A stretch of 64,000 nt of DNA, taken from the NCBI RefSeq assembly GCF_933775445.1, contig NC_065877.1, positions 36,902,694 to 36,966,693 on the forward strand. The letters run 5' to 3'. Every line of letters starts with the position of its first letter. The stretch's first letter is position 1. The translations under genes and the position numbers were made by a program. This stretch comes from Argentina anserina (taxonomy: Eukaryota; Streptophyta; Magnoliopsida; Rosales; Rosaceae). Shown here piece by piece: positions 14,001-37,705 of the stretch. The notes below the pieces were generated by a model. The model had not been told where the DNA came from. It worked only from the letters and a program-made list of their open reading frames with translations, and searched no databases.

Positions 14001-17000
14001 ATGCATACAAAAGCAGTACAATCTAGTTTAGAACTTCTGACAAACAAGAACATTGGCTGAATATTTTTCTTTTCCTTCAACTTATGTCATATTCAATGTG
14101 AGCTGTAAAAAGGAATGCCAATTTCAGTCATACGAGATAGGCGGCATTGCGCCATTAAAGATCTACAGTTTTAGGCTGACAAGATGCATATGCGAATCCA
14201 AAGGATAAAGGCGGAAGGTGGTGAATGAAGCGCATCTCGTCGGATGAATGCAAGATGGGAGAACTCACACCAATGTCTGTTGGAAAGAACACCTCGGATG
14301 TCGTTAAGTGTTTACTTATGAAACTTAAGGCGGATGGAGCTATCGATAGGTACGAGGAGAAGTTAGTCTCCGAGGGTATATTAACAGGCACGGACCCAGG
14401 CTATGCCTTGGAGGACTCAAGTCCCCCCTAAATCCAGACAATAATATACCAAGTACACATTATATATAGATAAAAAATACATATGCTTTAGTTTTGTAAG
14501 CTTGGTTTTGGTGTTTTTTTAATATCAAGTCCACCCAAATTCAATTCTCAACAAATGCAAGCCTTTAGAGTCTTTTTTCCCTGTACATTCATATTGGCCT
14601 TTATTTCTTCAACATGTTTTCCATTTTATTTTCATTGGTTATTAATTTTAATTAAGCTATTTGCTCAATGAAAAAGAATTCTTTTCAGCAATTGATTAAA
14701 TTAATAGTAATTTTAGATGGATTGCTATTTTCACATCAATAAAGTATATACCTAATGTAATATCATTACATATTTCATGCGCTATAGAATTTTATCATTT
14801 CAGTCATTATAAGAAAAAATATCATGTCCCCCGAGATATAAATCCTGGATCCGTCAGTGGGTATATACGTTACGGAATTGGTTATGAAATTATGTTTAGA
14901 CCAGTAGCAAATGTCAACACCAGTTTGACTTTTAATTTCACTAGCTTGCGACTAAGGGTTGGCCTTTGGCCTTTTTTACGACAGTTTGATGAGAAATGTT
15001 TTTCTGAATGGAAACTTAGACACAGTTTCCAATACCCTTAATATTGGCAAAGACTGTAATTATGGGAAGTCTTTTTAGTGGTTGAAACAGCTTTCTATAG
15101 TTGGATTGGGTGGCGCACGTTCTATGCACGGGGTTTGCGGGGGGGGGGGGGGGAGATTTTATAGGGTTACAAACTAGATTTTTCCCTCCATCCATTTCCA
15201 ATTATTTTGAACTGTGAACATCATATTATTTTATCATATAATACTTATGTTTTGAATGATATAATACTTATGTTTTGAATGAGGTTTAATGACAATTGAA
15301 AAGGGCTTATTGCTTGAAAAAATGACAAATTAGGAGTTATGGGTAGACAGATAGTCATTGGGGTGGTGATGAGACCGATTATCATGCATCTAGGTATTTT
15401 ATGTTTGTTAGGCATCATGATAACATGTCTGGATTGTTTTTCGTTGAAATAGTTCATAGTGATGCATGATTTGACTGAACTAAGCAAGTGGAGGAAGATA
15501 AACAACTCATTAAATCAATAAAAAACATGCATGAAAAATCAAATGATCTATTTGTGTATACCATATTTTCTTACAAAAAATATCAAAGAGAGTGTTTGAC
15601 AACACAATTTCGGCATGATGTGTCTTACATGCACCAGCTAATCAAGTAGAAATGTACTTTCCTATTATCTACAGCTAACATATTCTGTATAGTTGTAAGA
15701 ATAATGTGTGTGTGTGTGTATATATACACACGTCGAAATTTGATTCTAATGCATCATCTTCAGTTTTTTCTGCATATGATGAGATGTCTCCTATTTGTAA
15801 AGAGCGATCTCTAATTAACTCGGCATCTCCTAGTTCAAAGAAATTGGTTGTCCTCATAAAGCTTACCCCCGTATGCTTTTCCAAAACAAAAAAAAAACAA
15901 AAAAAAAGGTGGGAGGCACTGCTTAATGCGCATATGTGGTTCAAATACCCTTTTATATTACCACGTGTCTGAAACTATGTTTATTTTAGGGTTTTGGGAT
16001 AGATCTTCTACCTCTCTCCAAAGTCCAAACCAAGGGACCCTCAAACTAGATATACAATATTTTTCAAAATTCATTTGGGACATGATTAAAAGATACTATA
16101 TTATTTTTTCCAATGCATTAATCTGATTCCCACTTGCTTTCCACTTTATCATTCTGCTGTCTTCTAGTAGGTGAAATTACATAATACGAGATTTTTCACT
16201 TTTTTCTTTTCTAATTCTTGTTTCCCAGTACTTCCTCAAAACGAAACAAAAATCTTGCTTACCAGTGGAGAAGCTAATGTAGCTTCCCAACTATACTTAG
16301 TTCTCCATTTTGCTACTCAGTTTTTCTTTGTTTATATTTTCTGCTTCGTTTACTGAAGTACAGACCTTGTGCCTCTTGCTACTCTTAAATAAGATTTTTT
16401 TTGTTATTCCAGAATTGCTCAAAGGTTCAAATTCCTTTTGACACTATATAATTTATACATACCTCTGCCCTTCATGGAAGTGAACAAAATCTTCTCTTAT
16501 TTCTACAATAAGAATTTTAGAGACCTAAATTCTCGTGGCATATGGTGGCAAATGTGCCATTTTATGTACATTTGGGCGGCTGTGAAATTAAAACAATATA
16601 TTAAATCAATATAAGTTATTCACCAAAAAAATTGAAACTGTTTGAAGTGTTAAATGTTTCAAAATGCGCCAACTTGGTTTGTTAACTATAACCCTTAGTA
16701 GGCCTCATTATAGAACATGTCAAGGCAAGGAAATGACCCTATATAGTTTGGCCTATGAATGTTTTCACACATGTCAACCTCTTAAGTCAAGTCCTTAATT
16801 TAATTATACTCCAACTCTAACATATCCCTATTTACAACAATACCTTGGTTATACTCGGCCCCCAATTAGACTATTTTTTGGTCTTTCAACTAGACAATTG
16901 AAAAGGGGATAGTTAAAAAAATATCCTATCCCTATAGTGTGTCCCTTCTTGGGTCCGTTAAAGTGTGAAGAAATCAAATTATTGAGTTTTCAAAGAAGAG

Positions 17001-19872
17001 AATCACATTCTAGGTATTTGATTTCCCTATTACTTTTGTTCCGATCTCTATGTAGACGGTTACTCACAAAGACATTGGCAAAATCTTACAGAAAAATAGG
17101 AGGAGAAACTGAAAAGATGGAGAGCAGATTACCTAAAATGAGGACAGTGTTATCATATCACTCGAGGTCTAATCTGACAATTATTATAGATATTGTTGCT
17201 ATTTGATTTGAAATACGGATTCGAAGGATCACAAGTTGGTTCATTGATTTTAGATTTATACAAGAGAGGTTGCAATTGCCGTAGGACTTCGTGAAGTTTC
17301 ATAAGGTTTGAATTTGGCGCTGATCCATTCAGTTTATGGTTTTCGATTTATTTGTCATTCCTCCTAACATGTGCTTATGTATGGATGAATTTGAGAAGCT
17401 AATCCCAAAGTCCCAACTATGCTTAAGAGTTATCTTTGTCACGAAATACTCGTTTGAAAGAGAAAAGTAACACTTTCTATGTCTTGCCATAAAACAATTT
17501 CAAGTTAATTATGTATAGCAAAATGTTGCAGTATGCATGTCCTAGAAAAAAGAACATGGTCATCCTGAGTGCATTTCAAAATCATTCAGTCTATTTCCTT
17601 TATTAAATATTTTATAATGCTTAATTGTGTTACTTGAGTACAGATTAAATATTTTCCCTCGTTCTTCCATGTATCTTCACAGCTATAGTAAGTGAAAGGG
17701 TCGTGCTCGCGTGTGCAAGAATACTAGTTATCTTGAAGTGAGCTATTTGTTGAGTGTCACATATCGTGTGTGTGAACTAATATGTGAAAAAAAATATTTT
17801 GATGTCTCCAACAAATTACGCACTACGATTAGATTTGCACATTTTTTTATAAAAAACAAAATAAAACTGAATTTATATTATAGTTATTAGTATTTACATG
17901 TGAGTTGAAAAGTCAATTAGAAAAAGAAAAAAGATAAAGATGCATTTAGCTATTATTTCAAGCGTGTAAATAGAATTCCCCTTATATTTTTCCTCTTTTC
18001 ACCAAAAAACACAATGAACTCGTTAATCGTCTTCTCCAAGCATTCGTCAATAAAGATACCGTTTGTAATTTTGATCATACATATAATTTCCTAGTACTAG
18101 TTGTATATGATTGTGAACTCATAAGTTTCATTTATATGTTATTATCGCTAAGTTAGTTAAACAAATCAAACTCGTATTATATAAGATCGCTGGAGCACCG
18201 CAAATTTATGGTATGCTAATGGTTTATTGAAATGAAAGTCATATTGATGTGAGACATCAGGTTCAGCCAGGCATGCACGGATGCCTTCTGTCCTAAGCTC
18301 CGGTAAAGCTGTTAAGACTTGACCAGCTTAGGGAATATTGGCAGCAGAAGAAATCAACTAAATAAAAGAATATTTGGCCTCTCACTCGATTGGCCACCTT
18401 CACTACCAGTGACGGAGCTTAGTGTAACATGACCTGGGCGGTAGCCCGTACAACAATCCTAATCACTTCAATTTATGTATGTACGAATAATGCTAATCAA
18501 TGCTTTTTTCTGTAAACAGCCCAGTCAATCAAAATAGTTACTAAATTAACGTATTAATTTGTTCATAATTTAACCCACATTTCTAGCTAGTTACATGAAA
18601 GTCTATTAATGTCAATCATCTCATAATCCTGCTATTTTTATCATTGATAAAAGAAATATACCATATAAATCCTAATTCATATACTAATATCCGGACTATG
18701 TGATGTTTTTTTAGTCATTTAAATCGTATTAGTTACTGTATTTTTTTCTCAATATAAATTATTTTATACAGTATATTACTTACCGACTACATATTGAAAT
18801 ATTATTTTATGGGAAAAAACATATATTATCGATATAATATTTTTGAGATTGAAGCTCAAGATAAATTTAGCCCAGGATATTTTAGAATCCTGGCTCCCTC
18901 CGTCCATCACTATCTCATAAAATTCCTAACCCAGGTATATACGACCAACTTCATTCCCCAACCCAAAAGCCACCGCTCGAGATTGATAGTTTATGTTCTA
19001 GCTGTATATCGAAGTTAACCACAAAAAAATAAAACAAAAACATGACAGAAAGAAGATACATCTTATACTTCACAGAAGAAGGTCGAATACATGCATATAT
19101 AATAAAAAACACTATTGTCCGAATACATATACGAAATGACCATGAACACGATGATCATCTTGGGCATGAAGAACACAAAAGCTAGCCTCGATAGCTCTAG
19201 CTAAAATGGTTCATGCTTATCAACGGAACTTGACGATAGAGCTAGCTCCAACATCTCTGACACACAGTACTCGACAAACATAGTAGCAGAACATGATGAA
19301 ATTCTGGCCAGCTGCAGAATATGAAGAAATCCTAGCCAGCAGTTCAGCATTACAATGGCCGAAATTAAGCTGTTTAGCTAATTAGATAGATAGTGCGAGT
19401 TTTTTTTTTGGTATGAGAAATAGTGCGAGCTTTTTTTTTGGTAAAACACTAAACTCAGAACAAGATTTCATGTATACGTTGTAAATCAACGGTTGACCAA
19501 CGTACGGTACATATCTACATACAATAGCAGGCAGCAAAGCAAAGCAAAGCAAGGCAGCCAAGCCAGCACGATCTTAGTGGCTAGATATGTATATGTATAT
19601 ATATAGAATATAGAAAAGTACTAATCAAGTGGTTGAAAGCAAAATTTTGGCTAAGCAAAAATTAGCAAACGAGATCGGACAGCGTACCTATCGCCGCTAC
19701 AGAACTCGTACAGCCTCCCTTTGGCGGAGAAGATGATGAGCCCAACCTCGACGCCGCACAGGACAGAGAGCTCGCGAGCCTTCTTCATCAGCCCAGTCCT
19801 TCTCTTCGAGAAGGTCACTTGGCGCCTGATCTTGTCCTCGATTCGCTTCAGTTGCACCTTCCCTCTCCCCAT
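11003..19872 (-). CDS. FLC-like: FLC-clade type II (MIKC) MADS-box transcription factor
   Basis: Seven exons on the minus strand: 19872-19688, 13818-13749, 12848-12787, 12688-12589, 12253-12212, 11436-11395 and 11185-11003, encoding 227 aa. All junctions are GT..AG and phases are consistent. Exon 1 is the MADS DNA-binding/dimerisation domain (1-61; [29 protein letters not shown]). Exon 2 is the I region ([16 protein letters not shown]). Exons 3-6 are the K-box coiled coil ([37 protein letters not shown]). The FCSGD junction, exon sizes of 100, 42 and 42 nt, and a very long intron 1 (5.87 kb) place it in the FLC/MAF clade, known for repressing flowering with cold-regulated chromatin. The C-terminus is unusual: residues 199-208 are repeated E-G, from a hexanucleotide repeat. 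Residue 40 is G where MADS proteins usually have D. Whether it is vernalisation-regulated cannot be told from sequence. Confidence 0.9.
11059..11093 (-). repeat. GAAGGA-type coding microsatellite in FLC-like exon 7
   Basis: Imperfect CTCCTT repeats on the plus strand encode the E-G run at residues 199-208 near the C-terminus. Its length is likely to vary between alleles without shifting the frame. Confidence 0.8.
13308..13424. mobile_element. Tiny non-autonomous hAT element in FLC-like intron 2
   Basis: 117 bp flanked by a perfect 8-bp duplication ATGACAAA (13300-13307 and 13425-13432). Ends are CAAGGTTT... and ...TAGAACATTG. The interior is made of AGGCGG/CGCCTAGG-like subterminal repeats, the same kind as at both ends of the 34.1-37.7 kb hAT. 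Confidence 0.85.
14225..14380 (+). pseudogene. Ty1/copia reverse-transcriptase fragment
   Basis: The frame includes [19 protein letters not shown], which matches the start of the copia RT domain (family pattern K.K.DG.I.RYKARLVAKG). The fragment is cut at the 3' side by the hAT element starting near 14385. It lies antisense inside intron 1 of the FLC-like gene and has no function as a gene. Confidence 0.7.
14385..14859. mobile_element. hAT-like non-autonomous element in intron 1
   Basis: Ends CAGGCACGGACCCAGG and CCTGGATCCGTCAGTG form an imperfect 16-bp terminal inverted repeat. GGTATAT-like flanks occur on both sides (left GGTATATTAA, right GGTATATACG), so the exact boundary is uncertain by a few bases. 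It interrupts the copia RT fragment. Confidence 0.6.
15139..15153 (+). repeat. Poly-G run
   Basis: Fifteen consecutive G. Such homopolymers vary in length and are hard to sequence. It lies within FLC-like intron 1. Confidence 0.8.
18407..18905. mobile_element. hAT-like element private to duplication copy A
   Basis: About 499 bp with ends CAGTGACGGAGC and GGCTCCCTCCGTCC. The flanks TTCACTAC and ATCACTAT are an aged 8-bp target duplication. Copy B at about 26337 reads straight through (CCTTCACTATCTCG), showing the empty site. The element therefore inserted after the duplication, into intron 1. Confidence 0.85.
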
Positions 19873-20900
19873 TTCCGCTTCCTGGGCAAATCGTAATTCG
19901 TCAAAAACCCTAACCCTAGCAAACAGTGAGCTTAGCACTAGCAGGAGTCGAGAATCTGAGGAAAGTGAGGTCAAAGAGGGGCTTTTATAAGCGGAATCGG
20001 CAACGGGAACCCGGTCGTGAAACTGATTGGCTGGAGCGGTCAGTCGGTGACTTTGGGTTTTTGATTTTTACGGACACTTCTCTCCCTCTCTGTAGTCTAT
20101 ACTAGTTTTAACCCTTAAACCCAATCTCGTCTGGAAATTATACGATACATCTACTCTCCGCCACGTGTAACCATCATGTAAACTCCAATCCCCTCCCCCA
20201 TGAGAGGGACGGAGAGAGCAAAAAAAGGAAAGTATCCGGAGTAAATAGATCTAATAAAAGAAATTTACTGATGATGATGGTGTTTGCTTGGATTGGGATG
20301 GGACGGCCTCGAAGATATTTAAGGGCTGCCACGTCGGCAACAGTACTACCGGCACGTGTTAGTTGGGTTAGTGGAAAGCCCAAAAAGAGGTTTTGGTATC
20401 ATGGAAGATTGGAAGGGATATATTGGGAAAAGAAATTTCAATTTTGTCGAATTCTAATTTTGCTATAAATAGCATCATCTGCTGTTGGCTGTGCTTTGCC
20501 TCGGTGGACCAGGAAGAGCTGCCTTAATTGGTCCACGTGGCGGGACTAGTGAACCTAGTTTCACTATGCCTTTCGCGAGTTTTGAGTTGGAAGTGTCCCA
20601 TCGTCGTTCCAGAAATGTTCCACGTCTTTCCTTTAATGGTAAAAATACTCTGCAAGACTGGTGGTGGTGGTGATGGTGGGGGTGGATCTCTCAGAGCCTC
20701 AGAGTACCGAAATGACCCTTTGGCCCTCGGTTCTCTCTGTGGAGATATTGATTCGATCATTTCGGCCTAAATATCTTTTTCCGCTTTTTCACGCATCCTT
20801 ATAAGAACGCCCATCGGGTCCCGCCCATATCGATCCGAAATCGAAGCGGCTAAACCCTAACCGGGTCACCTTTAGGTTCAGTTCCAACTCTATCTAAACG
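19873..20900 (-). promoter_or_regulatory. FLC-like promoter, copy A
   Basis: Reading the minus strand, a TATA box (TTATAAAAGC, 19990-19981) lies about 110 bp before the ATG and a CCAAT box (ATTGG on plus, 20026-20030) lies about 40 bp beyond it. Three CACGTG G-boxes occur at 20162-20167, 20353-20358 and 20534-20539. G-boxes are bZIP/bHLH-type binding sites in plants. The open frames on both strands in this stretch are not genes. Confidence 0.65.
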
Positions 20901-21935
20901 GCCACCTTCACACCTTCCCAGTTTCCCTGACCTCTGCTCAGTACAGGAAAGAGAGCTTATTGGCCGAGATGAATCACAAAACCAATTCTCAGGTTTCCTT
21001 CCGATAATGCGTTATCGATCATTGTAGTCATAGGCTCAACCCACACCTGGCTTTAGGCCCAGTTTCCTACGTATAATTCTACCGGAACCTTTCCCCTGAC
21101 ATCTGATCAGTCTCAGTACGGGGTGACATGTTGCAACCGGAAAGAATGCTGGGCCAAGAAGGATCACAAAACCAAACAAGTCGATATCTATCATGCATTA
21201 TAGTTTTAAGCATTGATACTACTTTGATACGTTAAGAATATAGTTCGATGGCCTAAAACCTAATTCGTCCCAACGCATTCAAAAGCTTCTCGCATGTGAT
21301 GCAAATGTAATTAACACATAAGAGATGACAAAATTAGGATTTTAGAGGACACTCTTAAATAGGGAAACTGTTGGACTTAAAAAAGCATGGTGCTTTTCCG
21401 AATGACGAATGCATAAATTATAGGACAGGAAAGCTATAGGAGATGCTCAAAACTAAATATATGCACTTAACACCAACTGTGAGCATCAATACTAGCATAG
21501 CTGGAAAAAGCTTGCAATAGTTTCATTGAGAAACTATACCTTATATATGTTCCCTATCTTGTGAGCTTATTGGATATTGTAAACTTTAAATTCTTCCACA
21601 AAAGGCACCATGATCATGATAACTGATAAAGTGGTGCACTATTGGTTTTCCATAGACCATTACATCAATACACAATATTTTCTCTGTCTTCAAGCTCGTT
21701 TTCCCTTGGTTCTATGTTATTCACAATTTTGATCGAGGCAAGTATCTTTCACTATAGTAGCTAGCTAGCTAGTTTATGGTTGCAATTTTAGAGGCCTATG
21801 TGTACGTGGATTTGTAATTATATACATAACATACATATCGACATATCGTCACAGATCAATGCAAAAGAACACTAGAGAGGAAGCAAAAGTATTAATAATT
21901 AGGAAAATATACCTAGCTACGATGATGCATCATAA

Positions 21936-23290
21936 GAGCATGTGAAGTTAAACACAAGTAAAACAAATAATAAGGGAATGCACCATGTCTAATGCACACA
22001 CACTACAATGCTAAGGCTTCCCCGGAAATTTTCCAATACTCCCGGATGACCATGTGACAATTTCCAATGGTACTTCTCGTCTGTTATATTTTGACACGTT
22101 GATTTATTTCACCAAAATTATAATTTTACGTATTTTTATTATTTGTGAAATTACCTATCATGGGTATTGATGATTTTGAATTAGGATTTAGAGTTTAGAG
22201 TTTAGAATTTAAGATTTAGGGCTTAGGGTTTAGAGTTTAAGATATTAGAGTATATGGTATAAGGTGTAAGGTTTAGGGTTTAGAGTATTAGTGTATGGTG
22301 TAAGGTTTTAGAAAAGAAAAAAACTCAAAATAATCTTCACAAAATGGTTTAAATATGAATTTTTTAAGTAAATCTTGCGTGACAAAATATGATTGGAAAT
22401 AAGGACTACTGGATATTGCCACATAGTTCTCTGAGATAACTGAAAAAATTCTCGGCTTCCCTTAGCTAAACTAAGTAAGTGCAATAAGGGCAAGAAATGT
22501 ACTAATTACAAATAATAAACTAAAATTCATGAAATCCTTGAAAGTAAAACATTAAAACATTAAACAAAATATCAAGTATGAAATAGTTCAACATAAAAGA
22601 TCCGCCCCATCTATTAAGTACACAAATTTTGCCAAGGAAAACAATAAAACTAGAACAACCAAGTCTGAGGCTAACCTTATTGATCATAAATATAAGAGGC
22701 TGAAGCTAAAGTTAAGAACTTTGAGTATCTTTTCATGTTTTTTTTGTTTTCATGTATGGAGTTTAGTTTGTTTTTGTTTTGGTTACTTTGCTTTGTTACC
22801 GAAACCATGCTTGTCATGGTGTAGATATTATTTTTCTTGCATCGTGCGAAAGTGTTTAGATAGTTGGTCTATCCTAAATCATAAACCTTAAATCCTATGT
22901 ATCATTATGGTATATGTACCAGAAAGCTCTGTCTCCTGAAATAGGTGATAGCGGGTGAATATGTAATGACCTTCTTAACTTGTGTTTGTCTTATTAAATG
23001 AATTCTTATTTCAAAAAAAAAACTTAAAGAGTATCTAAAAGCATGTGTCTTGATTTCAAATAATCATATAAAACAGTATGAATTAAATCAATGATCATCT
23101 CTACCATCACGTTATTATACAAACACGGAAACACCTAATATCATCTAAAATCATGTATCTTCCCTCTGAGGTATTTCTACGAACACCTACTAAGCATAAA
23201 CCATAAAGTTTCCAAAAGAAAATTCAAAATTCCAATGCACCGAAATCACATAACAAGCATACAAAATCAATCAAACATTCTCATATCCAC
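21936..23290. other. Spacer between the duplication copies, with telomere-like repeats
   Basis: No gene supported. A degenerate TTTAGGG/TTTAGAG array runs from about 22180 to 22310 and resembles interstitial telomere-type sequence. The rest is AT-rich. Confidence 0.5.
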
Positions 23291-23297
23291 CGAGAGA

Positions 23298-23690
23298 AGA
23301 ATGAATTTCAGAATCATGGGTCTGGATGCTCCTATCATCACTGCTTCGGAGGAGACCGAGAAGACATTCAATGCTCTGACCTGTACTTATAACCGTGACG
23401 TACACCAAGGTCATGGCTTCCACTCCGGTAGAGTGAAGGAGTACCCAACTTCATTCACCCGTACTTACAACGGAGACACCAAGGCCATGTGTTCATGATT
23501 AACATGTCCGAGCTCAAGTCAGGGGACATCAAGGAGCAGGTGGAGGAAGATATGATCAGCGACAAGAGGAATAGGGAGGTAAGTTCACGAGGGGGTTAAG
23601 TATGTGAGGATGGAGAAGAGGGTTGGTAAGTTTCAACTATTTGCCTAGTAAGTTTTGAGTTTACTAATGTTGAGAATGCGAGTGCCTATC
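23298..23690 (+). pseudogene. Class II cytosolic small heat-shock protein pseudogene
   Basis: Decayed reading frames spell recognisable class II sHSP blocks: MNFRIMGLDAP at the start, EKTFNA, VKEYP, then in another frame MINMSELKSGDIKEQVEED (family: VIDMPGLKSGDIKVQVEDD), and KYVRMEKRVGKF. Frames are broken by small indels, there is an internal partial duplication around VKEYPTSFTRTYNGDTKAM, and the C-terminal half of the alpha-crystallin domain is missing. It lies in the spacer between the two FLC-like duplication copies. Confidence 0.8.
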
Positions 23691-24689
23691 TATTATTAAG
23701 TATTTTCCTAGTGAGTTTGATCACTAAGGCACGAAACGCCTTATCAATTGGCAAAATGACAATGATACTTTCTAGGGTGTGCCTAAAATTAGGTAATGCA
23801 TCTCACATCCTTGACGTCTCAATATTTGATAGTTAATAGATCAATAACACAATTTTCAAATACACTTCTCTAACATCAAAGATTCAAGCATAAGAGTATA
23901 ACATACATATTTGTATTCGTGTTCTAAACGAGTTCGTCTAAAATGTCTCATCTCCAACCTCATAATCACCATGGAAGAAGTTACCAGTTGCAGGATTGTT
24001 TTTCAGGGAGACGTGGAGTAAAAGAGAGTGCAAAAATGTAGGTGTTTTATTTCATTTTATATTTTTATATACATTAAAAATATTTATCTATGTTGAAAAA
24101 AAGATGGAACTTATCCGTCTTTACTAGTAAAGAGTATACCGGAGCTAAACAAACTTTTAAGCTCCAAAATTGTTAGTTTGCCGCTTAATCTTGTAGAGGA
24201 AATTGCTTCCGTCTCTATTACTATTAGAGACCATTTAATTCATCTCTATTATTATCAGAGACATAGAATACACAACTGTCACTAATAAAAACGATACACT
24301 TTTATTAATTCATCTCTAGGCTTCGTCTCTAAAAAATACATTTGGTGTGTAGTGTACTCGGCCCCCACCTAGACTATTTTTTTGTCTTCCAACTAGACAA
24401 TTGAAAAGGGGATAGTTAAAAAAAAAATCCTATCCCTACAGAGCCTAAGGCCTTACCATTAGCTTGTCAAGGAAGCTTGCAACGTCTCGAACCCGCAATT
24501 TTGTTCTTTATGACCATTATTATCTTCAAGTGCACGTACTATTTACGAGTGTAATAGTTTGAATCAAGAATAGTAGTTACATATCTCGTGTGTATGAACT
24601 TATATGTCCCCAACAAATTACGCACTGCGATTAGATTTGCAAATTTATTTTTGTAAAAACAAAATAAAACTGAATTTATATTATGAATT

Positions 24690-25890
24690 GATGGCCTAAC
24701 TTAAAATTCGACTTATGTCTAAATATATCAGATACGGACCTACTTTCACCGAGGGTCACAGGTGACGACATGATCCTTGCACCACCGTCATTGCACGCGT
24801 ATAGTGGTCTAACATCAAGGTGGAGAAGACAAAAACACCATTGTTGTATCTGCGCAGATGGATGCCTAGACTTTGATGGAACACTCTAACAAGGGTAAGC
24901 ATCCCTATCGTGTTGAATCACAAGGAAATGTTCCCTCTTTTTCAACATCATTTAAGGAGCTTGACTAAGCATGACCATAGTTAAGGTATGGTCAAGAGAT
25001 CGAAATACCATAGACATAATTAATTTCAATTATATTCTCGTACCCGCCTTAATTTCGTTATAAAAAAATGAGTATTTACCTGTCCCCATTCCCATTGGGA
25101 ATCGGTTCTCACGGGCTCAATAACCGTTAATGATATTTTGTTATATTATATGAATTATAAAAAAACGTAAAAATCTAAAATGAAAATCAAATATCATGAT
25201 AAAAATTAATTGTTTTACATGAATCTAACTTAAACAAGTACAAATCTAATTCAAAATAGAACATAATGATAAAAAAGAGTTTATTTACATAAATATCTAT
25301 TTTATTAATTAATATTAAAACATATATAATATATATTTTATTCTTATTGGGTAGGGATGAGTATGAGAATTAAAATATCATCACCGCCCGTTACCTAATT
25401 TCATATTTTGAATATATGAGATCCTCATACCCATTCCCCGTCTTTACTCATTTTACAGCCTCATTAGTGTTGAATACCCGTGATTACACTAACCGATTGG
25501 TAATATTGCTACCACTCAAGGGTCAATACATGGAATTAAGTATTATTATTTCTTTAAATTACACATTGCTTTAGCATTTGCACGAGAGACGCCTAAACCA
25601 ACTAGTTAAGTCAAATCGTTTCTCATCTATAATATAAATTCTGTAAAATTTTCTCGATGAGAAATATTTTTTTTAACCCATAAACAACCTAGAATTCAAA
25701 ATCAAGTCACTGATTCTAGTTTTAGTTTTCTTGTCCCTGTCATGTCTTGTTTAGTTTTAGAGTCAAAAACTCATTGTATCCTTTCCGTTTTCTAGTGGAC
25801 TAATCTTTGTTTGGAATATGATCTCGAACTCGTTGTAATTCTTTTTAAATTAATTAATTAATCTTTGATTAAAAAATCACACATGCATGT
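24690..25890. other. Insertion in duplication copy B (about 1.2 kb)
   Basis: Absent from copy A, where the flanking sequences are about 200 bp apart. It contains stretches such as CCCCATTCCCATTGGGAAT and CCTCATACCCATTCCCCG, which look like inverted ends of a degenerate DNA transposon. No coding sequence supported. Confidence 0.5.
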
Positions 25891-27106
25891 GATTTGTTAT
25901 ATTTTTCCTCTTTTCACCAAAGAATAATATATTTTTCCTACAATCAGAAAACACAATGAACTCGGTTAATCGTCTTCTCCAAGCATTCGTCAAAAATAAA
26001 GATACCGGTTTGTAATTTTGATCATACATATCTTATAATTCCTACCACTAGTTGTACATGATTGTGAACTTATAACTTCCATTTATATGTTACAATCCCT
26101 AAGTTTGAGTAGTTAACTCGTATTATATATGATCGCTGGAGCACCACAAATTTACGGTGCTAATGGTTTATTGAAATGAAAGTCATGTTGATGTCTATCG
26201 TGTTCGACCAGGCATGCATGGATGCCTTCTGTCCTAAGCTCCGGTAAAGCTGTCGGACTTAACCAGCTTAGGGAATATTGCAGCAGAAGAAATCAACTCA
26301 ATAAAAGAATATATGGCCTCACTCGATTGGCCACCTTCACTATCTCGTAGAATTCCTAACCCAGGTATATACGACGAACTTCATTCCACAACCCAAAGGC
26401 TACCGCTCGAGATTGATATTTTATGTTCTAGCTGTATATCGAAATTAAGTAACCAAAAAAATTAAAACAAAAACACGACAGAAAGAAGATACATCTTATA
26501 TTTCACCGAAGAAAGGTCAAGTACATGCATATATAATAAAAAACACCATTCTCCGAAATCCGAATACATGTACGAAATGACCATGAACACGATGATCATC
26601 TTGGGCATGAACACCACAAAAGCCTCGATAGCTCTAGCTAAAATGGTTCATGCTTATCAACGGTACTTGCCGAGAGAGCTAGCTCCAACATCTGACATAT
26701 AGTACTCTACAAGCATAGTAGCAGAACATGATGAAATTCTGGCCAGCGGAAGAATATGAAGAAATCCTAGCCAGCAGTTCAGCATTACATGGCCGAAATT
26801 AAGCTGCTTAGCTAATTAGATATATAGATAGTGCGAGTTTTGAATTGGTAAAACACTAAACTCAGAACAAGATTTCATGTATACGTTGTAAATCAACGGT
26901 TGACCAACGTACGGTACATATCTACATACAATAGCAGGCAGCAAAGCAAAGCAAAAGCAAAGCAAAGCAAGGCAGCCGAGCCAGCACGATCTTAGTGGCT
27001 AGATATGTATATTTGTATATATAGAAAATAGAAAAAGTATTAATCAAGTGGTTGAAAGTAAAAATTTGGCTAAGCGAAAATTAACAAACGAGATCGGACA
27101 GCGTAC

Positions 27107-27291
27107 CTATCGCCGCTACAGAACTCGTGCAGCCTCCCTTTGGCGGAGAAGATGATGAGCCCAACCTCGGCGCCGCACAGGACAGAGAGCTCGCGAGCCT
27201 TCTTCATCAGCCCAGTCCTTCTCTTCGAGAAGGTCACTTGGCGCCTGATCTTGTCCTCGATTCGCTTCAGTTGCACCTTCCCTCTCCCCAT
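27107..27291 (-). pseudogene. Second FLC-like MADS exon 1 (orphan or alternative first exon)
   Basis: 185 bp, the same length as exon 1 of the downstream gene, with an intact ATG (27291) and an intact donor (AG|GTACGCTG) in the same phase. It encodes the same 61-residue MADS domain with two differences: V41A and Y55H. No stop, no frameshift. No copy of exons 2-7 follows before copy A; the next compatible acceptor in the gene is at 13818, 13.3 kb downstream. Spliced there, it would give a full-length alternative isoform. Otherwise it is a non-functional orphan. The intact frame and TATA box favour recent origin or retained use; the sequence alone cannot decide. Confidence 0.8.
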
Positions 27292-28560
27292 TTCCGCTGT
27301 GCTGGGCAAATCGTAATTCGTTGAAAACCCTAGCCCTACTACACAGTGAGCTTAGCTTAGTAGGAGTCGATAATCAGAGGAAAGTGAGGTCAAAGATGAG
27401 GTTTTATAAGCGGTCAGTCGGTGACTCTGGGCTTTTGATTTTGATGGACACTTCTCTCCCTCTCTATAGTCTATACTAGTTTAACCCTTCCCCAATCTCA
27501 TGTCTGGAATATACGATGCATCTACCTCGCCCCCACGCTTACCCATCATGTAAACTCCAATCCCCTCCCCCATGAAGACAAGAACAAAGAGAGACGGAGG
27601 GAGCAAAAAAAGGAAAGTATTTGGAGGTAAATAAATATAATCAAAGAAATTTACCTTGATGATGATGATGATGATGCTTGCTAGGATTGGGATGGGCTCA
27701 GAGATATTTAAGGGCTGCCACGTCGGCAATAGTACTACGGGCAGGTGTGAGTTGGTTAGTGGATGTGAGAGGAAACCCCAAAAAGAGGTTTTGGTATCTC
27801 GTAAGGGATATATTGGGAAAAAATGGAACCTACACTGGTTTCAATTTTGTTCGCCCGTTAACCCATAATTCTAATTTTCCTATAAATATCTATTTTTTTA
27901 TTGAACTATAAATATCTGTTTGGCAGCTGTGCTTTGCCGTAATATAAGAGAGTAAGAGGATATTTTTAAGGAAATTCAGTGATCATTTTTTATTTGTTTA
28001 TTCTTCTAAATTTATAACGTGTGTTTTTTATTTTAATAATAATTTAGTAATTACACACATGATATTTGTTTAGAATTATGGCACAAAGTGATCAAATATT
28101 TTTTTTATTTTTTATTTCAAGAGACTAAGAGGACAGGGGGAGCTGCCTGAAGGGGTCCACGTGGTGGGACTAGTGAAGCTGGTTTCACCATGCTCTCGAG
28201 GTTACAAGTGCCCCATCGTCATTCCAGAAATGTTACACATCTAATCTTTCCCTTAATGGTAAATACTCTGCAAAACAAGTGGTGGTGGTGGATCTCTCAG
28301 ACTCTTAGAGCCTCAGAGAATACGAAATGACTCTTTCACCCTCGGTCCTCTCTGTGGAGATATTGATACGATCCTTGGCCAAAATATCTTTTTCTGCTTT
28401 TTTACGCGTCCGTCGGGTCCCGCCCATATCGATCCGAATACGAATCGAGTCGGCTAAACCCTAACCAGGTCACCTTTAGGCCCAGTTATAAACGGCCACC
28501 TTCACACCTTTCCCAGTTTCCCTGACCTCTGCTCAGTACGTGTTACATGTCCGTTACAGA
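27292..28560 (-). promoter_or_regulatory. FLC-like promoter, copy B
   Basis: Homologous to promoter A. A TATA box (CTTATAAAAC, 27410-27401) is kept. The CCAAT box is lost by a deletion of about 45 bp between two GCGG repeats just upstream of TATA. Of the three G-boxes only the distal one survives (CACGTG, 28158-28163); the other two sites read CCACGCTT and GCAGGTGT. AT-rich sequence absent from A lies at about 27890-28130. Confidence 0.6.
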
Positions 28561-28879
28561 AAAGGAAGCTTGACCAAGATGAATCACAAAACCAATTCTC
28601 AGGTTTGCTTCCGACAAGCATTATAGTTTAAAGCATTGATCATCATTGTAGTTTTTGGCACAACCCACACCTGGCTTTAGGCCCAGTTTCCTACGTACAG
28701 TTCTACTGGAACCTTTCCCTGGTCAGTCTCAGTACGTGGTGACATGTTGCAACTGAAAATATCATACCACAAAACCAAAGAAGTCGATATCATACCAAAG
28801 CATTATAGTTTTAGGCATTGATAGGTTATGAAAATAAATATATAGTTCGATGGCCAAAACCCAATTCGTCCCAAGTTTC

Positions 28880-30110
28880 TCAGCCTATTGGGCTGTCTCA
28901 ATCTGTTTGAGCTATTGGCAACCAAGTACTCGACTCTTGTGGGAAAAAAAAGTTGGGAGTCTTTGAGGGGTATGTGGAAATCAAGTCTCTTAGGATAAAC
29001 TAAAACGATTTCATCTCCGTTCGGTGGCGTGTTTATTAACGCTGCCGCTAGACTAGAGATGTGTTTGGGTCAGTTGGTGGCCGAGCAAGGAGGTTGATAG
29101 TGGTTGACCGATGGAGGGTGGCGGCCCTGGATTTGGTCCGCTTGTTGCTTTCGGTTTTTGCTTCACAGGGGTCATGCCTGATGGCGATGTCTTGATGTCG
29201 CTTCTGAGTTGCCAATTTGGGCTCGCAGGGGGTGGTGTTGCCGCCGGCACGAGATGAGATGGGGAGCGGAGGCGTCGCAAACTCTCTGGTTTGCTTTACT
29301 AACCGAGGTTGGGTCTCATCGATCTTTTGCTTGTGTGATTTTTATGCACGGTGAGCGGTATCTGGCGTGATTTAGAGTGGTGGCTTGCTAGCGGCGGTAG
29401 GCATTAATGTTTGACGACGGTTACTGTGACCGGAAGGCGGCGATGGTAGGATGGCAGAATTATGGTCGGTGGCCTTTGGAGGTTCATGGTGGTGGGCCTA
29501 GGCTCTTTTAGGCCTAGGTTGGGTCAACCAGTTAGGTTGTGTAGGTGGGCTTAGGTCTTTTTCTCCAAGTCTGTTTTTGTGTTTTTTTTTCTTTTGTTTG
29601 TCCCTCCTCCTTGAGTGAGGGTTTAGGTTTGTCGATAGGTAGGGTATGGTCGTGTCGTTGAGTACACATGTTTATGGTGCATGTTATTTTCAGGATTATT
29701 TAAAATTCAGTTCTTTATGGGTGTCAATGTAATGGAGAGGTTGTCTTTGCAAATATACCGAAGGTTTTGGTATGTGATGCTATTAGAGTGGTTTCCTTCT
29801 TGAAATTAGCGGTTAGTAGGTTATCTGTTATTTCTATAATCATATTTGATTGGTTCAGGATTAGGCCTTCTTAGCTCATGTTTATTGATTCTTGTGATAG
29901 TCCTATGACTAGCAGTGTTGGTCAAACTAAGTGTGGAAAATCTAGTTCCACCACCGAGTGTTCCATTATTGTAATCTTATTTTGGTGATATATCTTTTTT
30001 CTAAAAATAAAAAATATGTTTGAGTTAGCATGTGAGACCCTATCCCACTAGTAGTTTAGGATTTTCATTAGAGCAACTCCGATCTATTAGATACTTTGAT
30101 GGAGATCGAG
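28880..30110. other. Insertion in copy B, possible LINE remnant
   Basis: A 1.2 kb block absent from copy A and richer in G than its surroundings. On the plus strand it ends in an A-rich tail (CTAAAAATAAAAAATATG, about 30000). That would suit the 3' end of a non-LTR retrotransposon, but no coding domain is recognisable. Confidence 0.35.
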
Positions 30111-30164
30111 CATTTTTCTCGTATGTGATGCAAATGTAATTAACATAGAAGAGAGGACAAAATA

Positions 30165-32725
30165 AACACATTGAGTAGAGAATTTTGCGTATGAATGTGC
30201 CTTCTAATTCCCGCTTCACATTTTTTTTTCAATTTTTGGTACACCTAATCTACTACAAAATGTTGTGATTTATGAACCAATTCATTATTCTTGTCTTAAA
30301 TGTTCTAAAATTTCACAAGGTCATGCAAATAGTTTATCATCATCACTCCCTCCCTCATACTTTTACCTCTCTTTTATAAATTTATAAGAGCAACTCCAAC
30401 ATGTTCTTCATGTTTTAAACTAATTATTGCTAAATCTCCTTTAAAATAAACTCATGCATATTTTTCCTTCATTTTACGCCCACTCGACGTAAGCAAACCT
30501 ACTATATAAAAGCTTATGTCGATGACTAATGGTGTTTTCCATTTTTCATGTTACTAATTTGCCATTCAGATTGTAGAATGCTATATTTGGTATGTTATTC
30601 AATCTTAGTATCAATTTGAATTTCAAATAGTAAGCAAAAATTTAGTTGAATTCAACTTTCTCATAAATTTTACATTCTTAATTTCTTACCTTATTTTATA
30701 TTTTCTTTACTCACTTGATTATATATATTCTCTTCATAGAAGTATTCCATTTCTTTCCTAAAGACTTTGATTAGAATCTTCAGAAAGATTTGTATTCTTG
30801 TTTCAAAGTAAGGGAAGAATGTAAGTGTCCATATTACTTTTTGCATATGTCTTAGTGAGCTGATTGAAGAAATATTTTGAAAGAATTGAAGAAGAGGGAA
30901 GAAAGGAGAAAAGAGTTTGAACAACAGATTGGAATATTGCATTTCAATCCTAAGCTTCACACTAATGCCTTGATGTTCATACTAAAAAAATGTCTAATTG
31001 CAAGGTACATTATTATTTTTCTTTAGCAATCTTTTCTCTTGTTTTAAGTATATTATTATTTCATGTTTAAACTTGATCGAGAGAACCTTTTGCTCTCAAC
31101 CATTTACAATTTTCATCTACATATTAACTAAGTAAAGTTTGAGTAACTTAACATTGATCACAATAAGTTATATATATGTATGTATTCCACAATCATAGGT
31201 ATAATTTATTAGGAAACCTAACTAATAGGGATAATAAAAATAAGAATCTAATATATAGGTGTTTAATATTTATGTGTCATACATAAAAAATATAAATAAA
31301 TTTTCTATAAATCAGAGTTTGTGAGACTCAAATTAACTTGAACAAATACTATAATAGTCATAGGTCTTGTTTACTAGTGCTAGGATTACATGTGTAATTT
31401 TTTTTTCTAGGAAAAAATTATTAAATAAAAAAGATGTATTTATATTTATATTATTTATGATTATATGTTATGTATAAATAATGAATTTTCTTTCACCTAA
31501 ATTTTTCAGAAAATTGTGAAAATAGTCCATGATTCTCACAATAATAATTAAATTGATTGAAACAACAAAAAAATTAGCATTAAAGAAGAAACCCATAATT
31601 AAGATATTTAATATAAAAATCATTAATTAAGGTTTTTAATTATGTTGATGTTATAATTAAATGATGGTAATTTATAAATATTACATAAAATAAGACATAA
31701 AATGTATCACAATCAGCACATTTTAGGTGTCTATTGAAAATGTATATTTAATGAGTTTTATTTAAAAGATGTCTTGAAAATTGGGTGTAAATTAAATTCC
31801 CTTTTTTATTTTTCTTTACTTTACGAAAAAATAAGCCTATTTCACTCCAACAAATTTCCTATAGTTATCTCCAATAAAATGAATGCATTGAACGACGATA
31901 GCGAATTCCCTAAATTTACAGCATTCCCTAAAGATTTTGGAGATGGGGTTTCTATTCATACCTCCTAAAATGACATTTTGACCTCCATATTTTTCCTAGA
32001 TAGTTTTGACTTAGTCAATGCATATGAAATTACCAAAAAACAACATATAAAAATAAAAATACAAGAAGGGAAATAATTGTTTACTTATCTATTATAAAAT
32101 ACAAATGTAGATAATTATCTTTTATATTTATTTCTAAACAATCCAAAATGAGATATCAAATTACATTAAATGATTTAATTGATTACCTTCCTTTTTTATC
32201 AACATTATTAGTCAAAAATTTAATGTAGTTGATAAACATCAAATTGAATGTGGATGATTTAATGTATAAACTATATAACTATCTATAATTTCTCATAAAC
32301 TTCAATTTGAGCCAAAAAAATAAAACTTATTCATTAGAGGTTAGATTATTTGATATATGTTGATGAACAAAACTCGTTAGTTAGAGGTTAAAATATTTCA
32401 TATACGTTGATGTTACTATCAATGAATGAAAAATATAGTTTATCAATTTATTATGAATTTAGAAAACGAGTGGAGAATGATCGAATTAATTCAAGAATAT
32501 AGTTTGTGTGATTATTATGCATTTTTCGAGTTGTATAGAATAAATGAATTTGAAATAGAGTCGAAAAAAATTAATAGATAGTAGTATGATTTGATATATC
32601 AAAATAGATAATTGACATTTTAGAAAATCTTTGAAGGTTTAAATAGTATTATTCTAGGTATCTATAAAAGCAAAATGAATGTCTACTGAGTAAGAATGTC
32701 TAAATACTGTTTTTAGAAGTATTAA
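30165..32725. other. AT-rich insertion in copy B (about 2.5 kb)
   Basis: Absent from copy A, very AT-rich, with no gene or clear element ends that I can identify. Confidence 0.45.
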
Positions 32726-33518
32726 TAGAAGCTCCCTTTTAGAGAACACTCTAAAATAGAGAAAACTATAGGTTTTGAAGCATGTAACTTTCCTAATGTA
32801 AAACTTATAGGATAGTTGTTGGAGATTGCTCTAATTTAATAATTACAGTTAACATCAACTGTGAGCATCAGTACTATAGCATAGCTGGAAAAAGCTTGCA
32901 ATCTAAGTTTCATTGAGCAACTATATATATGTTCCCTGTATTCTTGTAAGCTTACTGGATTTTATAATTTTCTTCCGCAAAAGGCGCCATGATAATGTAA
33001 CTGATACAGTGATGCACTATTGGTTCTCCATAGACCTAATCATCGATACAAAATATTATATCTGTCTTCAAGCTCGTTTCCTCTTGGTTTTATGTTATTC
33101 AGAATTTTGATCGAGGCAAGTGTCTTTCACTGTCATACGGAGCTAGTATATGCTTGCATACGATTTTGTACGTCAAATATTATATAGTTGCAATTTTAGA
33201 GGCCTATGTGTACGTGAATTTGTAATTATATACATGCATATCGACATATCGTCGGAGATATTGATATAGAATTTTACGACTTGAAGAGGAGGAGAATAGA
33301 AATTTATAGGATTCTGTTCACTTTAGTAAGAAAGCAATAGAACACACAACATCCTGCAAAAGTATTAAACTATTAACAATTAGGAATATACCTAGCCACG
33401 AGCCCGCCCACGATGACGCACCCATACTAGTTGTTGATTACTCTTAACTGTTGCAAGAATAATATCAGTATATATAAATAAACAAATATATATATATATA
33501 TATATAAAAGGTTTTTTC

Positions 33519-33913
33519 CCTAAGGATGTTCTTATTTATTCTTACAGTACATATTTTCATTTTGATCAACTTTTTGATCGATTTTTAATATTTTCACCAT
33601 CTAATATCTAAGTAATAACGTATAGATCATCTCTACAAAATTTAAGTCATTTTGAAAATCATTAAAATACTTATAACTTCGATTTTTTACTCAAAATATG
33701 AACGGTTTAGGTTCGGTAGAATTCAATTCGTCCATTGTTTTTGATTAGTTTGATACATTAACAATCATCAAATCAGCTAAAATTTTGTGGAGATAATCTA
33801 TTTATTATTACCTAGATATTGGACGGTGTGGATGAAAAAACTCGATCGAAAAGTTGGTCAAATATGAAAATTCGTGCCATAAAAATAAGAATAAATAAAG
33901 ACCTCCTTATGGT
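33519..33913. mobile_element. Foldback MITE (long inverted arms)
   Basis: The two halves are inverted copies. The left arm begins CCTAAGGATGTTCTTATTTA and the right arm ends AATAAAGACCTCCTTATGG. Internal arms share GATCAACTTTTTGATCGA / TCGATCGAAAAGTTGGTC. It is flanked by (TA)n runs on both sides. It resembles the element at 35341-35757. Confidence 0.75.
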
Positions 33914-34905
33914 CATATATATATATATATATGAAGCCAATGGCTTTCCTTAAAGAGTATGGGTATCAAGATCTACCGAGGTCCGAAGTTAAAGAGAAGT
34001 CGATCACCAAACTACACAGCACTGACAACATTAATCTAAAACTAAAAGATGGGAACTATGCTAGAAGATATTAACTAGCTAATAGCAATGTTCTAAAAAC
34101 GGGCTAGGCGGCCGCGTAGACGCTAGCCTGCCGTTCCGATTTTAACATAGGCGGGTTGTCTGGGCATTAGGGTCAAAAACGGCTGCCTAGGCAGGTTCTG
34201 GGTGGTTTAGGCGGATCTTGGGTGAAACGATTTAGGCAGTTCTTGGGTGGTTTAGGCGGTTTGTAGGCGCTACTCTAATTCCCCCACCCCCCCCCCCCCC
34301 CTCATCTACCCTTTATGCGTGCTCGGATACTCACATATCCCTTCGTCTCTCACTTTAATTCACTTTAACTAAAAATCTACGCCTCCAAGTAGTGCCTCCT
34401 CTCACCTCCCTCAATCCCGATCGGCAAAGCAAAACCTATAAATTTAGAACCCAGCCTCTGCAGCTCTGCTTCTTTAAATCCCTAGTCGTGCACTAGTGCG
34501 CTCTCTGCCTCTCTCTCTCCGACTGTTAAAAGACGCGGCGCCACAGTAGTCACACTCTCTCTGAGTTGAAGCTTTCATTCCAAGTTCGTCAATTGTGACC
34601 AAGGCTATTCGCTCTTGGTTTGATTTTGATGTTGAAGCTTTCATTGCTACTCCGGTTCACGACCCCCTATAAATTTCTTCTCATTTTCTTGTTGCATATT
34701 TATGGTTATGATCTTTATTGTGTTTTTGTCTATTGTTGTTTGGATCTGTTTATGTTCTTATTATATTGGGTGTGATTGAAAATTTGAAATCTTGTTCTTG
34801 ATTTCAAATTCAACATTTTTTTATGTATTGGTGTGTTTGGTTTAACTGTATTACAGCCCATGATGTAATGGTACGAAGGTATCATATATATATATATATA
34901 TATAT

Positions 34906-35300
34906 AGTCCCTATCCAGAGTGAAGCTTCACTCTGAAATTACAGAGTGAAGTTCCAATTTTGGCACACTTTTCGGTCAAAATTTTTCACCATAAGCGATT
35001 CAATATTTAGGTATGATATTCAAGATCATCTATACAAAATTTCATCTAATTCGGATATCGTTAAGGTATTGAAATTAGATTAAATCAATGAATGAATTAA
35101 AACTGTTCAACGTGAACCGTTCGTGTAAATCCCAATTTTAAAAGCTCAAATATTGTCAAATTGGATGAAATTTTGTAGAGATGATCTTGAATAGCATACC
35201 TAAATATTGAATAACTTATAGTGAAAAAATTTGACCGAAAAGTGTGTCAAAATTGGAACTTCACTCTGTAATTTCAGAGTGAAACTTCATTCTGGATAAG

Positions 35301-35304
<4 letters not shown>
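34906..35304. mobile_element. Foldback MITE nested in the hAT
   Basis: Left end AGTCCCTATCCAGAGTGAAG pairs with the right end (reverse complement AGTTCTTATCCAGAATGAAG). The arms are inverted along most of their length (TTTTGGCACACTTTTCGGTC against GACCGAAAAGTGTGTCAAAA). It sits between (TA)n runs. Confidence 0.8.
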
Positions 35305-35340
<36 letters not shown>

Positions 35341-35344
<4 letters not shown>

Positions 35345-35757
35345 GGGGCTTTTTAGGTAAGGAGGTCTTTATCTTAGTTTAAGGTACGGATTTTCATTTT
35401 TGACCAACTTTTCGATCGATTTTTCACATCTCGACCGTCCAATATCTAGGTTATAACGTATAGATCATCTCCACAAAATTTCAGCCGATTTCATGATCGT
35501 TAAGGTATCGAACTAATCAAAACCAATGGACATATTGAATTTGCCGAACCTAAACCGTTCATATTTTGAGTAGAAAATCGAAGTTATGAGTACATTAACG
35601 GTGATGGAATCGGCTGTAATTTTGTGGAGATGATCTATACGTTATAACCTAGATATTGGACGGTCGAGATGTGAAAACTCGATCGAAAAGTTGGTCAAAA
35701 ATGAAAATCCGTACCTTAAACTAAGATAAAGACCTCCTTACCTGAAAAGCCCCGTAT
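35341..35757. mobile_element. Near-perfect palindromic foldback MITE nested in the hAT
   Basis: Two arms of about 200 bp, almost identical when inverted. Ends are ATACGGGGCTTTTTAGGTAA and TTACCTGAAAAGCCCCGTAT; internal pairs include CCAATATCTAGGTTATAACG with CGTTATAACCTAGATATTGG. It is flanked by long (TA)n and would form a long hairpin if transcribed. Confidence 0.88.
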
Positions 35758-35982
35758 GTATATATATATATATTACATGTGAGTTCAAAATCAAGATGTG
35801 TCTGAAATTCGTTTTTGATGATATTTTACTTTTATTACATGATATCATGTATCAGGATCATATAGTTTTAGAAGTTCCATCTTCTCTTCTTTTTTCCAGG
35901 TTATAGTTTCTTGACTTTTTTCACTAATGATTGGTATGGCATATACAAAGAAAGTGATTATATTGCATTCAAAGCATGTAGG

Positions 35983-36739
35983 CAGGGGCGGATCCCAGGT
36001 GAATATAACCCATAAAAAAACTCAACCCTCTATTAAAAAAAATTTAAAACATCAGCACGAGTCTCTCTCTGTCTCTCACACTTTCGCGTCTTCTTCTTTC
36101 AATCTCTGAAGATTTTCTCGTCTGCTTTTGCTGATCTGCTCTTCAGCCTCTTCTTCTAATCATCTTCTCGAGTTCTCGTTTAAGCCTGCATGTTACCACT
36201 CACCACTTGCCATTGCTTGTCGCCGTTCTCCACTTCCCCGTGCACGCCGCTGAAGCTCTTAACCAGTCCATAAGTTTAGCACTTTTCCTCTAATCTCTTT
36301 CAAAATTGAATCAAATTTTAGCTTATAGAATGATTGATTTGATTTGGAATGATTTGAGATTTTTGGTATATGGGTTTGTTGGTTAAAGTATTGATATAGA
36401 ATGATTGGAAATTTGGAATCGAAATTAGGTGTTAGTATGTACTATCTGTTACAGAATGGCTAGTGACTGTGATCAGAGATTGAGTATTTTATTTGCCTAT
36501 TTGGAAATTATAATCAAAGTAGTGAAGTTTATTAATTAACATCAGGCGAGATAAATACATAATGAAAGATAAAACAGAGGTGTGTAGAGATTAATTTGAA
36601 AATGCTACATTCTGATAACAAATATCGACATACCTAATATAAGGAGAGAGAAAATTTTTGCACTCCGCGCAAATAAAAGCAATTTTACGCTTCACATCAA
36701 ATTAGCCCTCGTAGCATTTCAATCCTAGATCCGCTACTA
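35983..36739. mobile_element. hAT element nested in the larger hAT
   Basis: 757 bp, ends CAGGGGCGGATCC and GATCCGCTACTA, perfect 8-bp target duplication CATGTAGG (35975-35982, 36740-36747). No transposase frame. Confidence 0.9.
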
Positions 36740-37705
36740 CATGTAGGTCTATGAAGTAAGTACGACGGTTGCCTATAGTACTGGATGCTGAAAATTGCAG
36801 CAAGTGTTGAAACACATGAACAAGAGACTTTACTAATTGAATTGACTGACCTGATCTTGCCTATTGCTTACTTGGTGTTAGTGACTTGCTGTGTATATAT
36901 CTTTTGTATATGACTTGCTGTGTCTTGCGTTTTGTCTATTGTTGCACTAACTATATAACCTGTATTGCTGACTTGCTGTGTATATGTCTAGTGTGTAGAT
37001 GAATCATTAGATCATTTAGATGATAGAGTTTCGATTTAGTGTTGGTTGAATTTTATTTGAAGTTAAAGTTCCTTAATTAATCTTATATAGGATTGGCAAG
37101 GTAATGGTAAGTGGCACTAATTCTTTGTTGGCATCTACCGGTATGTAAGCAATTGATAAAAGCATTAAAACGTGGTTCGGGAGATGTTGGATGAGATTAT
37201 GGGGAGTTGGTGAAAGGTACAAATTTGGATCGAATTCAATCTAAATTGTGTGGAAAAGTAGTGAGTGATGAAATATATCGAATCAAACAACATATTGCTA
37301 GCATCAAGAGGAATGTACCATCTTGTAAGAAGTCTACCGATGAGGACAAAGCAAAATGCAATTTGAGTTTGAGACTGATATGGAGGGAGTAGTGGAGGGA
37401 GTTAGAGAAGAAGAACGTGAGTCATAGGCTTGGAAGATTTTAATTTGCTTATTTACATTTCTCTTTTATATATTTTTTAAGAACATTGTTGCATGTTGAA
37501 CATTTGATTCATCTATTATTTTTAGTATTTTTCTTATTCTGAACTATTAAAATACATTCTCATAACGTTATTTTAATTTGTATATGTTATTACAAATAAA
37601 AAAATTAATTAAATATATAAACCGCCTAGTCCCCGACTAGTCTTTTAGGCGCTAGTCCCCAATAATCCGTCCGACTAGCGCCTAGCGTTTTTTAGAACAT
37701 TGGCT

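Follow-up and report, generated by a model that had tools for sequence, protein, structure and literature searches.

The closest described counterpart of the locus analyzed here is PEP1 of Arabis alpina, an FLC orthologue that is reported to carry a tandem copy of ~2 kb in which exon 1 is accompanied by portions of promoter and intron 1 (PMC3527215). The two PEP1 first exons lie 6.3 kb apart and are both spliced to one exon 2; their transcription starts were found to be separate by 5' RACE, and their expression differs (PMC3527215). In the accession Dor before vernalization, the upstream first exon accounts for 3% of the transcripts in leaves and for 26% in apices (PMC3527215). In the set of FLC orthologues compared by Kiefer et al., PEP1 is the only one with a duplicated exon 1 (PMC5485006). 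The Arabis event therefore seems confined to its lineage, and the silverweed duplication described below seems separate from it. Local duplication of FLC has also been described in Arabidopsis lyrata and A. arenosa, the latter with one partial beside two complete copies; the copies in these species are mainly full-length, and the available portions of the sources (PMC3527215, PMC7927791) describe no sharing of exons 2–7 by two first exons. The part of the literature that was covered, which leaves out most subscription journals, yielded no description of a duplicated first exon of FLC in Rosaceae.

The stretch of DNA analyzed here, referred to as the window, comprises 64,000 nucleotides from the genome of the perennial silverweed (Argentina anserina, Rosaceae; contig NC_065877.1). 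It contains, on the minus strand, an FLC-like gene with seven coding exons and six GT-AG introns that encodes a product of 227 residues. The exons are located at 19688–19872 (exon 1, MADS domain), 13749–13818 (exon 2), 12787–12848 (exon 3), 12589–12688 (exon 4), 12212–12253 (exon 5), 11395–11436 (exon 6) and 11003–11185 (exon 7, stop codon included). Exon 7 encodes a Glu-Gly run with five consecutive EG pairs; the corresponding run of the Rosa and Fragaria proteins is shorter. Elsewhere in the window, one plus-strand tRNA gene was found at 4473–4554 (Rfam RF00005, 59.6 bits), and a tandem array of ~2.9 copies of a 373-base unit with 93% matches occupies 50275–51349.

The 227-residue product is an exact match to the database entry 'truncated transcription factor CAULIFLOWER A-like [Argentina anserina]'. 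Judging from its domains and its placement, this name is misleading, since the protein has both a MADS domain (PF00319, 6.2e-26) and a K-box (PF01486, 2.5e-11), each past the cut-off, and groups with FLC-named proteins. In a tree of 34 proteins, it falls in a set of 26 rows with all nine FLC-named rows, separated from a set of eight AP1/FUL rows with a split support of 100/100; as SEP, AGL6 and SOC1 proteins were left out of the tree, it sets the FLC side apart from AP1/FUL alone. The closest row to the silverweed protein is from Fragaria (95/85), and within the 26-row set the Rosaceae rows stand beside, and not among, the FLC-named rows, in a branching order without resolution. The gene also displays the pattern of the FLC clade, with the MADS domain within exon 1 and seven coding exons, which is that of most FLC-like genes of Brassicaceae (PMC10536770).

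Proteins homologous to that of silverweed are encoded by the FLC-like genes of Rosa, Fragaria, Rubus, Geum, Prunus, Malus and Pyrus, with full-length identities, among the matches listed, of 79% for Rosa and 75–76% for Fragaria. Apple MdFLC3 is reported to repress flowering in transformed Arabidopsis (PMC7348945). Two Rubus argutus proteins (P0007 and P0009) share 77–82% identity with the silverweed protein over 74–79% of its length and cluster with the Rosaceae FLC-like rows; a clear FLC homologue is nevertheless said, in another report, to be absent from both public blackberry genomes (PMC13232755). A Rosa chinensis protein of 102 residues (P0123), encoded by an exon 1 that runs into the intron, was not counted as a second exon-1-only gene, because its record equals that of P0004 in length and the two may represent the same locus split by annotation. 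A. anserina seems to have no FLC-like gene other than the one described here.

Sequence comparison revealed a second MADS exon 1 on the minus strand at 27107–27291 (61 codons plus two bases), upstream of the normal one; we refer to the two as the distal and the proximal exon 1, respectively. They are identical in 183 of 185 bases, with no indel and no stop codon, and their starts are 7419 bases (7.4 kb) apart. Both end in AG/GTACGC, with the donor of the distal exon intact and in equal phase, and the opening 22 intron bases are identical. At the two differing positions (122 and 163 of the exon), the proximal copy has T and the distal copy has C, which results in the substitutions V41A and Y55H. 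The likeness is not due to chance, since the two copies were matched with E values of 1.3e-90 and 6.4e-88, compared with 3.3e-26 or weaker (71–75% identity) for the remaining six of the eight genome DNA matches scored. A search of plasmid records with the exon retrieved no match, as expected of a plant. The coordinates, frame, donor, phase and both substitutions given for a second intact MADS first exon in the original prediction were thus all verified. Joining 27107 to the acceptor of exon 2 at 13818, which is open to either first exon, yields an open frame of 227 residues with an intron of 13,288 bases (27106 to 13819).

The distal exon is part of a direct tandem duplication of ~5 kb that takes in exon 1 together with its promoter and a portion of intron 1. 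In the blastn comparison, positions 16852–21856 pair piecewise with 24355–33259, and an extra match of 37 bases links 21886–21922 to 33367–33401. The proximal copy, which comprises part of intron 1, exon 1, the promoter and upstream sequence, therefore extends over 16852–21922, and the whole distal copy, in pieces, over 24355–33401, both on the minus strand. A search for a second copy of exons 2–7 was unsuccessful at the DNA level (10500–13900 against 20000–40000, blastn with E up to 0.01) and at the protein level (tblastn in 13901–45000 with E up to 10), and a relic of a whole-gene duplication was discarded for want of such a copy nearby. These results bear out the earlier description of a duplication with promoter, exon 1 and 5' intron that lacks exons 2–7, although the unit is larger than then described.

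Two further origins were considered. A retrocopy was rejected because the duplicated unit includes a promoter and an intron. An assembly artefact was judged unlikely from the assembled sequence itself, since the aligned non-coding parts of the copies differ by 4–15%, the distal copy lacks exons 2–7, and the window is free of any N. Dating of the duplication with assumed rates gave ~4–34 million years, a range too loose for use.

Three stretches are found in the distal copy only (24685–25896, 28875–30115 and 30164–32736). Dispersed repeats are matched by ~24960–25545, by most of 28875–30115 and by ~31930–32736, whereas 30164–31930 has no repeat match among the candidates scored (40 out of 114, 155 and 458, respectively, in the searches of the three stretches). 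The last of these, of which about 790 bases (31948–32736) belong to a high-copy dispersed family with main scored matches of 85–91%, precedes the distal promoter on its upstream side. The stretches 33469–33932 and 35306–35773, immediately beyond the upstream end of the distal copy, match each other both directly (72%) and in inverted orientation (79%), and are probably an inverted-repeat element.

The junction between the copies (21927–24348) is filled by a dispersed repeat, with repeat matches over 21927–22730, 23029–23498 and 23618–24348 and a second repeat nested at 22025–22453. We compared it with five other genomic copies. Two of these (L010 and L011) align with each other past the point that matches 21927, and the four that reach the point matching 24348 (L009–L012) cease to align near there. 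As judged from these alignments, the junction repeat is truncated at 21927, the point at which the proximal unit loses its upstream homology, and on the other side the natural terminus of the repeat at 24348 abuts the start of the intron homology at 24355. On the strength of this arrangement, we infer that the breakpoint of an unequal exchange was located within a probably transposable element of intron 1. No copy of the repeat was found in the proximal intron (16000–16851), a stretch that matched only itself genome-wide. A mechanism in which two copies of the junction repeat recombined was discarded, as no other copy was seen near 16852 or 33401.

The layout is that of the PEP1a/PEP1b pair: a partial, direct tandem duplication, in which promoter, exon 1 and a portion of intron 1 are repeated ahead of single exons 2–7, with an extra exon 1 that is intact and has the same phase and donor. 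The exon spacing is similar as well (6.3 kb in PEP1, 7.4 kb in silverweed), and both plants are perennial. The two loci differ in that the silverweed unit spans ~5 kb, compared with ~2 kb for the longest PEP1 segment, and in that the silverweed exons encode slightly different proteins, whereas the PEP1 exons of accession Paj are predicted to encode identical ones. Use of both first exons has been demonstrated in Arabis only. Because silverweed belongs to Rosaceae and not to Brassicaceae, its duplication presumably arose independently of the Arabis event.

We favor, with some caution, the reading that the distal copy is a working alternative first exon, probably minor or tissue-restricted. The sequence shows that the tandem duplication doubled exon 1 with its promoter and a portion of intron 1 and left exons 2–7 single. 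In the scheme that we propose, the distal promoter would still start transcription, roughly 90 bases before the ATG as suggested by the placement of its TATA box, and the distal exon would be spliced over 13.3 kb to exon 2, skipping the proximal promoter and exon 1. The outcome would be a second full-length isoform with A41 and H55, probably minor or limited to some tissues or seasons, in an arrangement equivalent to PEP1a/PEP1b and presumably reached independently. The original proposal, with splicing over 13.3 kb from an alternative first exon, is structurally possible, and the PEP1 locus provides an experimentally demonstrated precedent. Splicing of the distal exon to an AG ahead of the proximal ATG, inspected by eye, leads to an early stop. 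The main rival, in our estimation possible although the less probable of the two, is that the distal copy is a dead by-product, i.e., a non-functional relic of the unequal exchange that by chance is still undisrupted, with any transcripts being noise.

The divergence between the copies bears directly on this choice. Exon 1 differs at 2 of 185 positions (1.1%), compared with 22 of 221 (10%) in the immediate flanks (Fisher p 8e-5) and 87 of 1145 in all of the aligned intron (Fisher p 2e-4). Upstream of the ATG, 14 of 121 positions differ in the 5'UTR, 43 of 376 in the promoter and 108 of 698 farther upstream; in intron 1, the differences amount to 8 of 100 in the first bases, 18 of 436 in the next part, and 19 of 205 and 42 of 404 beyond. 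Likewise, there are no indels in the 185 exon bases, as opposed to one to four per neighboring window of 100 aligned bases. Both the exon divergence, significantly under that of the immediate flanks, and the lack of indels speak against a dead by-product and in favor of use of the exon.

As the proximal exon is itself constrained, we computed a test in which changes were allowed on the distal branch only. An unconstrained distal exon would be expected to have ~9.9 changes according to the immediate flanks (Poisson P(≤2) 0.003) and 7.4 according to the full 1145 bases of aligned intron (P(≤2) 0.022); the nearest 536 aligned intron bases, with 26 differences, give 4.6 and a non-significant P(≤2) of 0.16. 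When synonymous change is counted on both branches, the P values become 0.0004, 0.005 and 0.07, respectively. The flanks may themselves be constrained, in which case the test would be conservative. Constraint on the distal exon is thus suggested by the substitution pattern and not proven, and the low exon divergence may also stem from a low local mutation rate or from conversion.

Recent gene conversion by the proximal exon, rather than selection, would be compatible with either fate of the distal exon and is not exclusive of them. It would account for the absence of synonymous differences between the exons and for the low divergence of part of the 5' intron, where only 1 of 100 positions differs (proximal 19571–19472). 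However, divergence is high directly on both sides of the exon (8 of 100 right after the donor, 14 of 121 right before the ATG), so that a conversion tract would need to follow the exon boundaries almost exactly, and we regard this explanation as improbable. The alike stretch of the 5' intron itself (~100 bases, 19472–19571 and 26879–26989) has one substitution and one indel, and is closer between the copies than the neighboring intron; it is a possible conserved intronic element.

The dN/dS check of the exon copies yielded two missense and no synonymous differences. All 16 other Rosaceae rows of the protein alignment have V41 and Y55 (17 database rows, one being the silverweed gene; 17 of 21 fetched sequences aligned, several rows coming from single species), and the distal copy is therefore the most likely origin of both missense changes. 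With two missense and no synonymous changes, both on the distal side, the dN/dS ratio is uninformative. A derived missense pair without synonymous change argues against strong constraint to the same function, and, at sites invariant in the other rows, it adds to the case for a dead by-product. In 106 MADS domains parsed from the best 120 of 1055 matches, A41 was found in 28 and H55 in one; in a wider set of 222 domains, which includes matches of a search with the distal exon and is biased towards that exon, the counts are 115 and 11. The occurrence of both new residues elsewhere is weak evidence, because ~25% of all single-base changes that could occur lead to a missense residue that is also found in other proteins (24–28% are synonymous). 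Eighteen distinct PDB sequences were matched, namely 14 of the MEF2 type along with SRF, MCM1 and a SEPALLATA3 fragment. Residues 41 and 55 presumably lie in the beta-strand dimerization part of the MADS domain and not in the DNA-contacting helix, which makes the 'slightly different DNA-binding domain' proposed at the outset an imprecise description of the second isoform.

The promoters have retained some elements and lost others. In both copies, the TATA box TTATAAAA precedes the ATG by 118 bases (27402–27409 distal, 19983–19990 proximal, minus strand). The distal 5'UTR and promoter (27292–27821) align to proximal 19873–20431 with 57 mismatches in 497 aligned bases, and the two share one GCCGAC, located inside 28 identical bases, and one ACCGAC. 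Two CACGTG (G-box) sites and a CCAAT at -158 are present in the proximal promoter only. The CCAAT box belongs to a 45-base segment (19995–20039) that is missing from the distal promoter and is bounded by CCGCT repeats, as expected if the distal copy had lost it by deletion. Taken by itself, the sequence divergence of the promoters fits changed regulation and decay equally well. Should both promoters be active, their divergence suggests that the two transcripts likely differ mainly in when and where they are made, and less in the action of the protein.

Each copy of the 5' intron also has one TGCATG hexamer of the RY type (+777 and +762), that of the distal copy (26334–27106) being at 26524–26529. 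In the equivalent part of FLC, RY elements are described as binding sites for the repressor VAL1 (PMC5485006). As ~0.7 occurrences of TGCATG are expected by chance in 1.5 kb on both strands by plain arithmetic, the hexamers are only a lead. A bolder proposal, which we consider rather unlikely, would take these motifs together: the FLC locus of a perennial Rosaceae would have independently evolved the PEP1 layout, with two separately regulated modules of promoter, exon 1 and 5' intron on one gene body, each with a cold-responsive promoter (two RCCGAC) and a silencing region (TGCATG), and the distal module would have been selected for adding a differently timed isoform with altered dimerization residues.

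It is also conceivable that the distal promoter acts mainly without a full-length protein, either dampening the proximal promoter in cis by transcribing through it, or yielding transcripts that terminate in the intron and encode a MADS-only peptide of 73 residues that may dimerize. The distal exon, read on past its donor, encodes 73 residues before a stop, and the proximal promoter is located inside the distal transcription unit; moreover, the mRNAs of apple MdFLC1a/b are reported to hold intron sequence and their deduced proteins to lack the K and C domains (PMC7348945). However, the proximal exon likewise stops after 73 residues, so the read-on is nothing special to the distal copy. We attach little probability to this mode of action.

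Use as an alternative first exon, the reading we favor, is thus supported by the low exon divergence, the intact frame, donor and TATA box, the occurrence of A41 and H55 in other MADS proteins, and the precedent of PEP1. Against it stand the derived missense pair, the lost CACGTG and CCAAT sites, the P of 0.16 from the nearest intron, the 13.3-kb intron with its repeats, and the database cluster of the normal 227-residue protein, which has a single member. The lost motifs and this cluster also favor a dead by-product, as do the indels and extra repeat sequence around the distal copy and the fate of the Arabis counterpart: the upstream PEP1 copy is reported not to amplify in three of six A. alpina accessions tested and to be deleted in Tot (PMC3527215). 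The distal isoform or exon was absent from the best 120 of 1055 and the best 120 of 397 protein matches. The RNA-seq of the silverweed assembly is stated to come from leaf (PMC11162522), and absence from a leaf-based annotation is weak evidence given the low share of the upstream PEP1 exon in leaves relative to apices.

The layout itself is already known from PEP1, and silverweed looks like an apparent second case, in another family. Should both first exons prove to be in use, one and the same flowering repressor would have acquired this two-promoter arrangement in two plant families, both times in a perennial. A review states that tandem FLC duplications themselves do not contribute to perennial life (PMC7927791). 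The two bases that differ between the first exons label the two transcripts, and the Rosaceae case would provide an independent test of whether this layout alters the seasonal expression of FLC.
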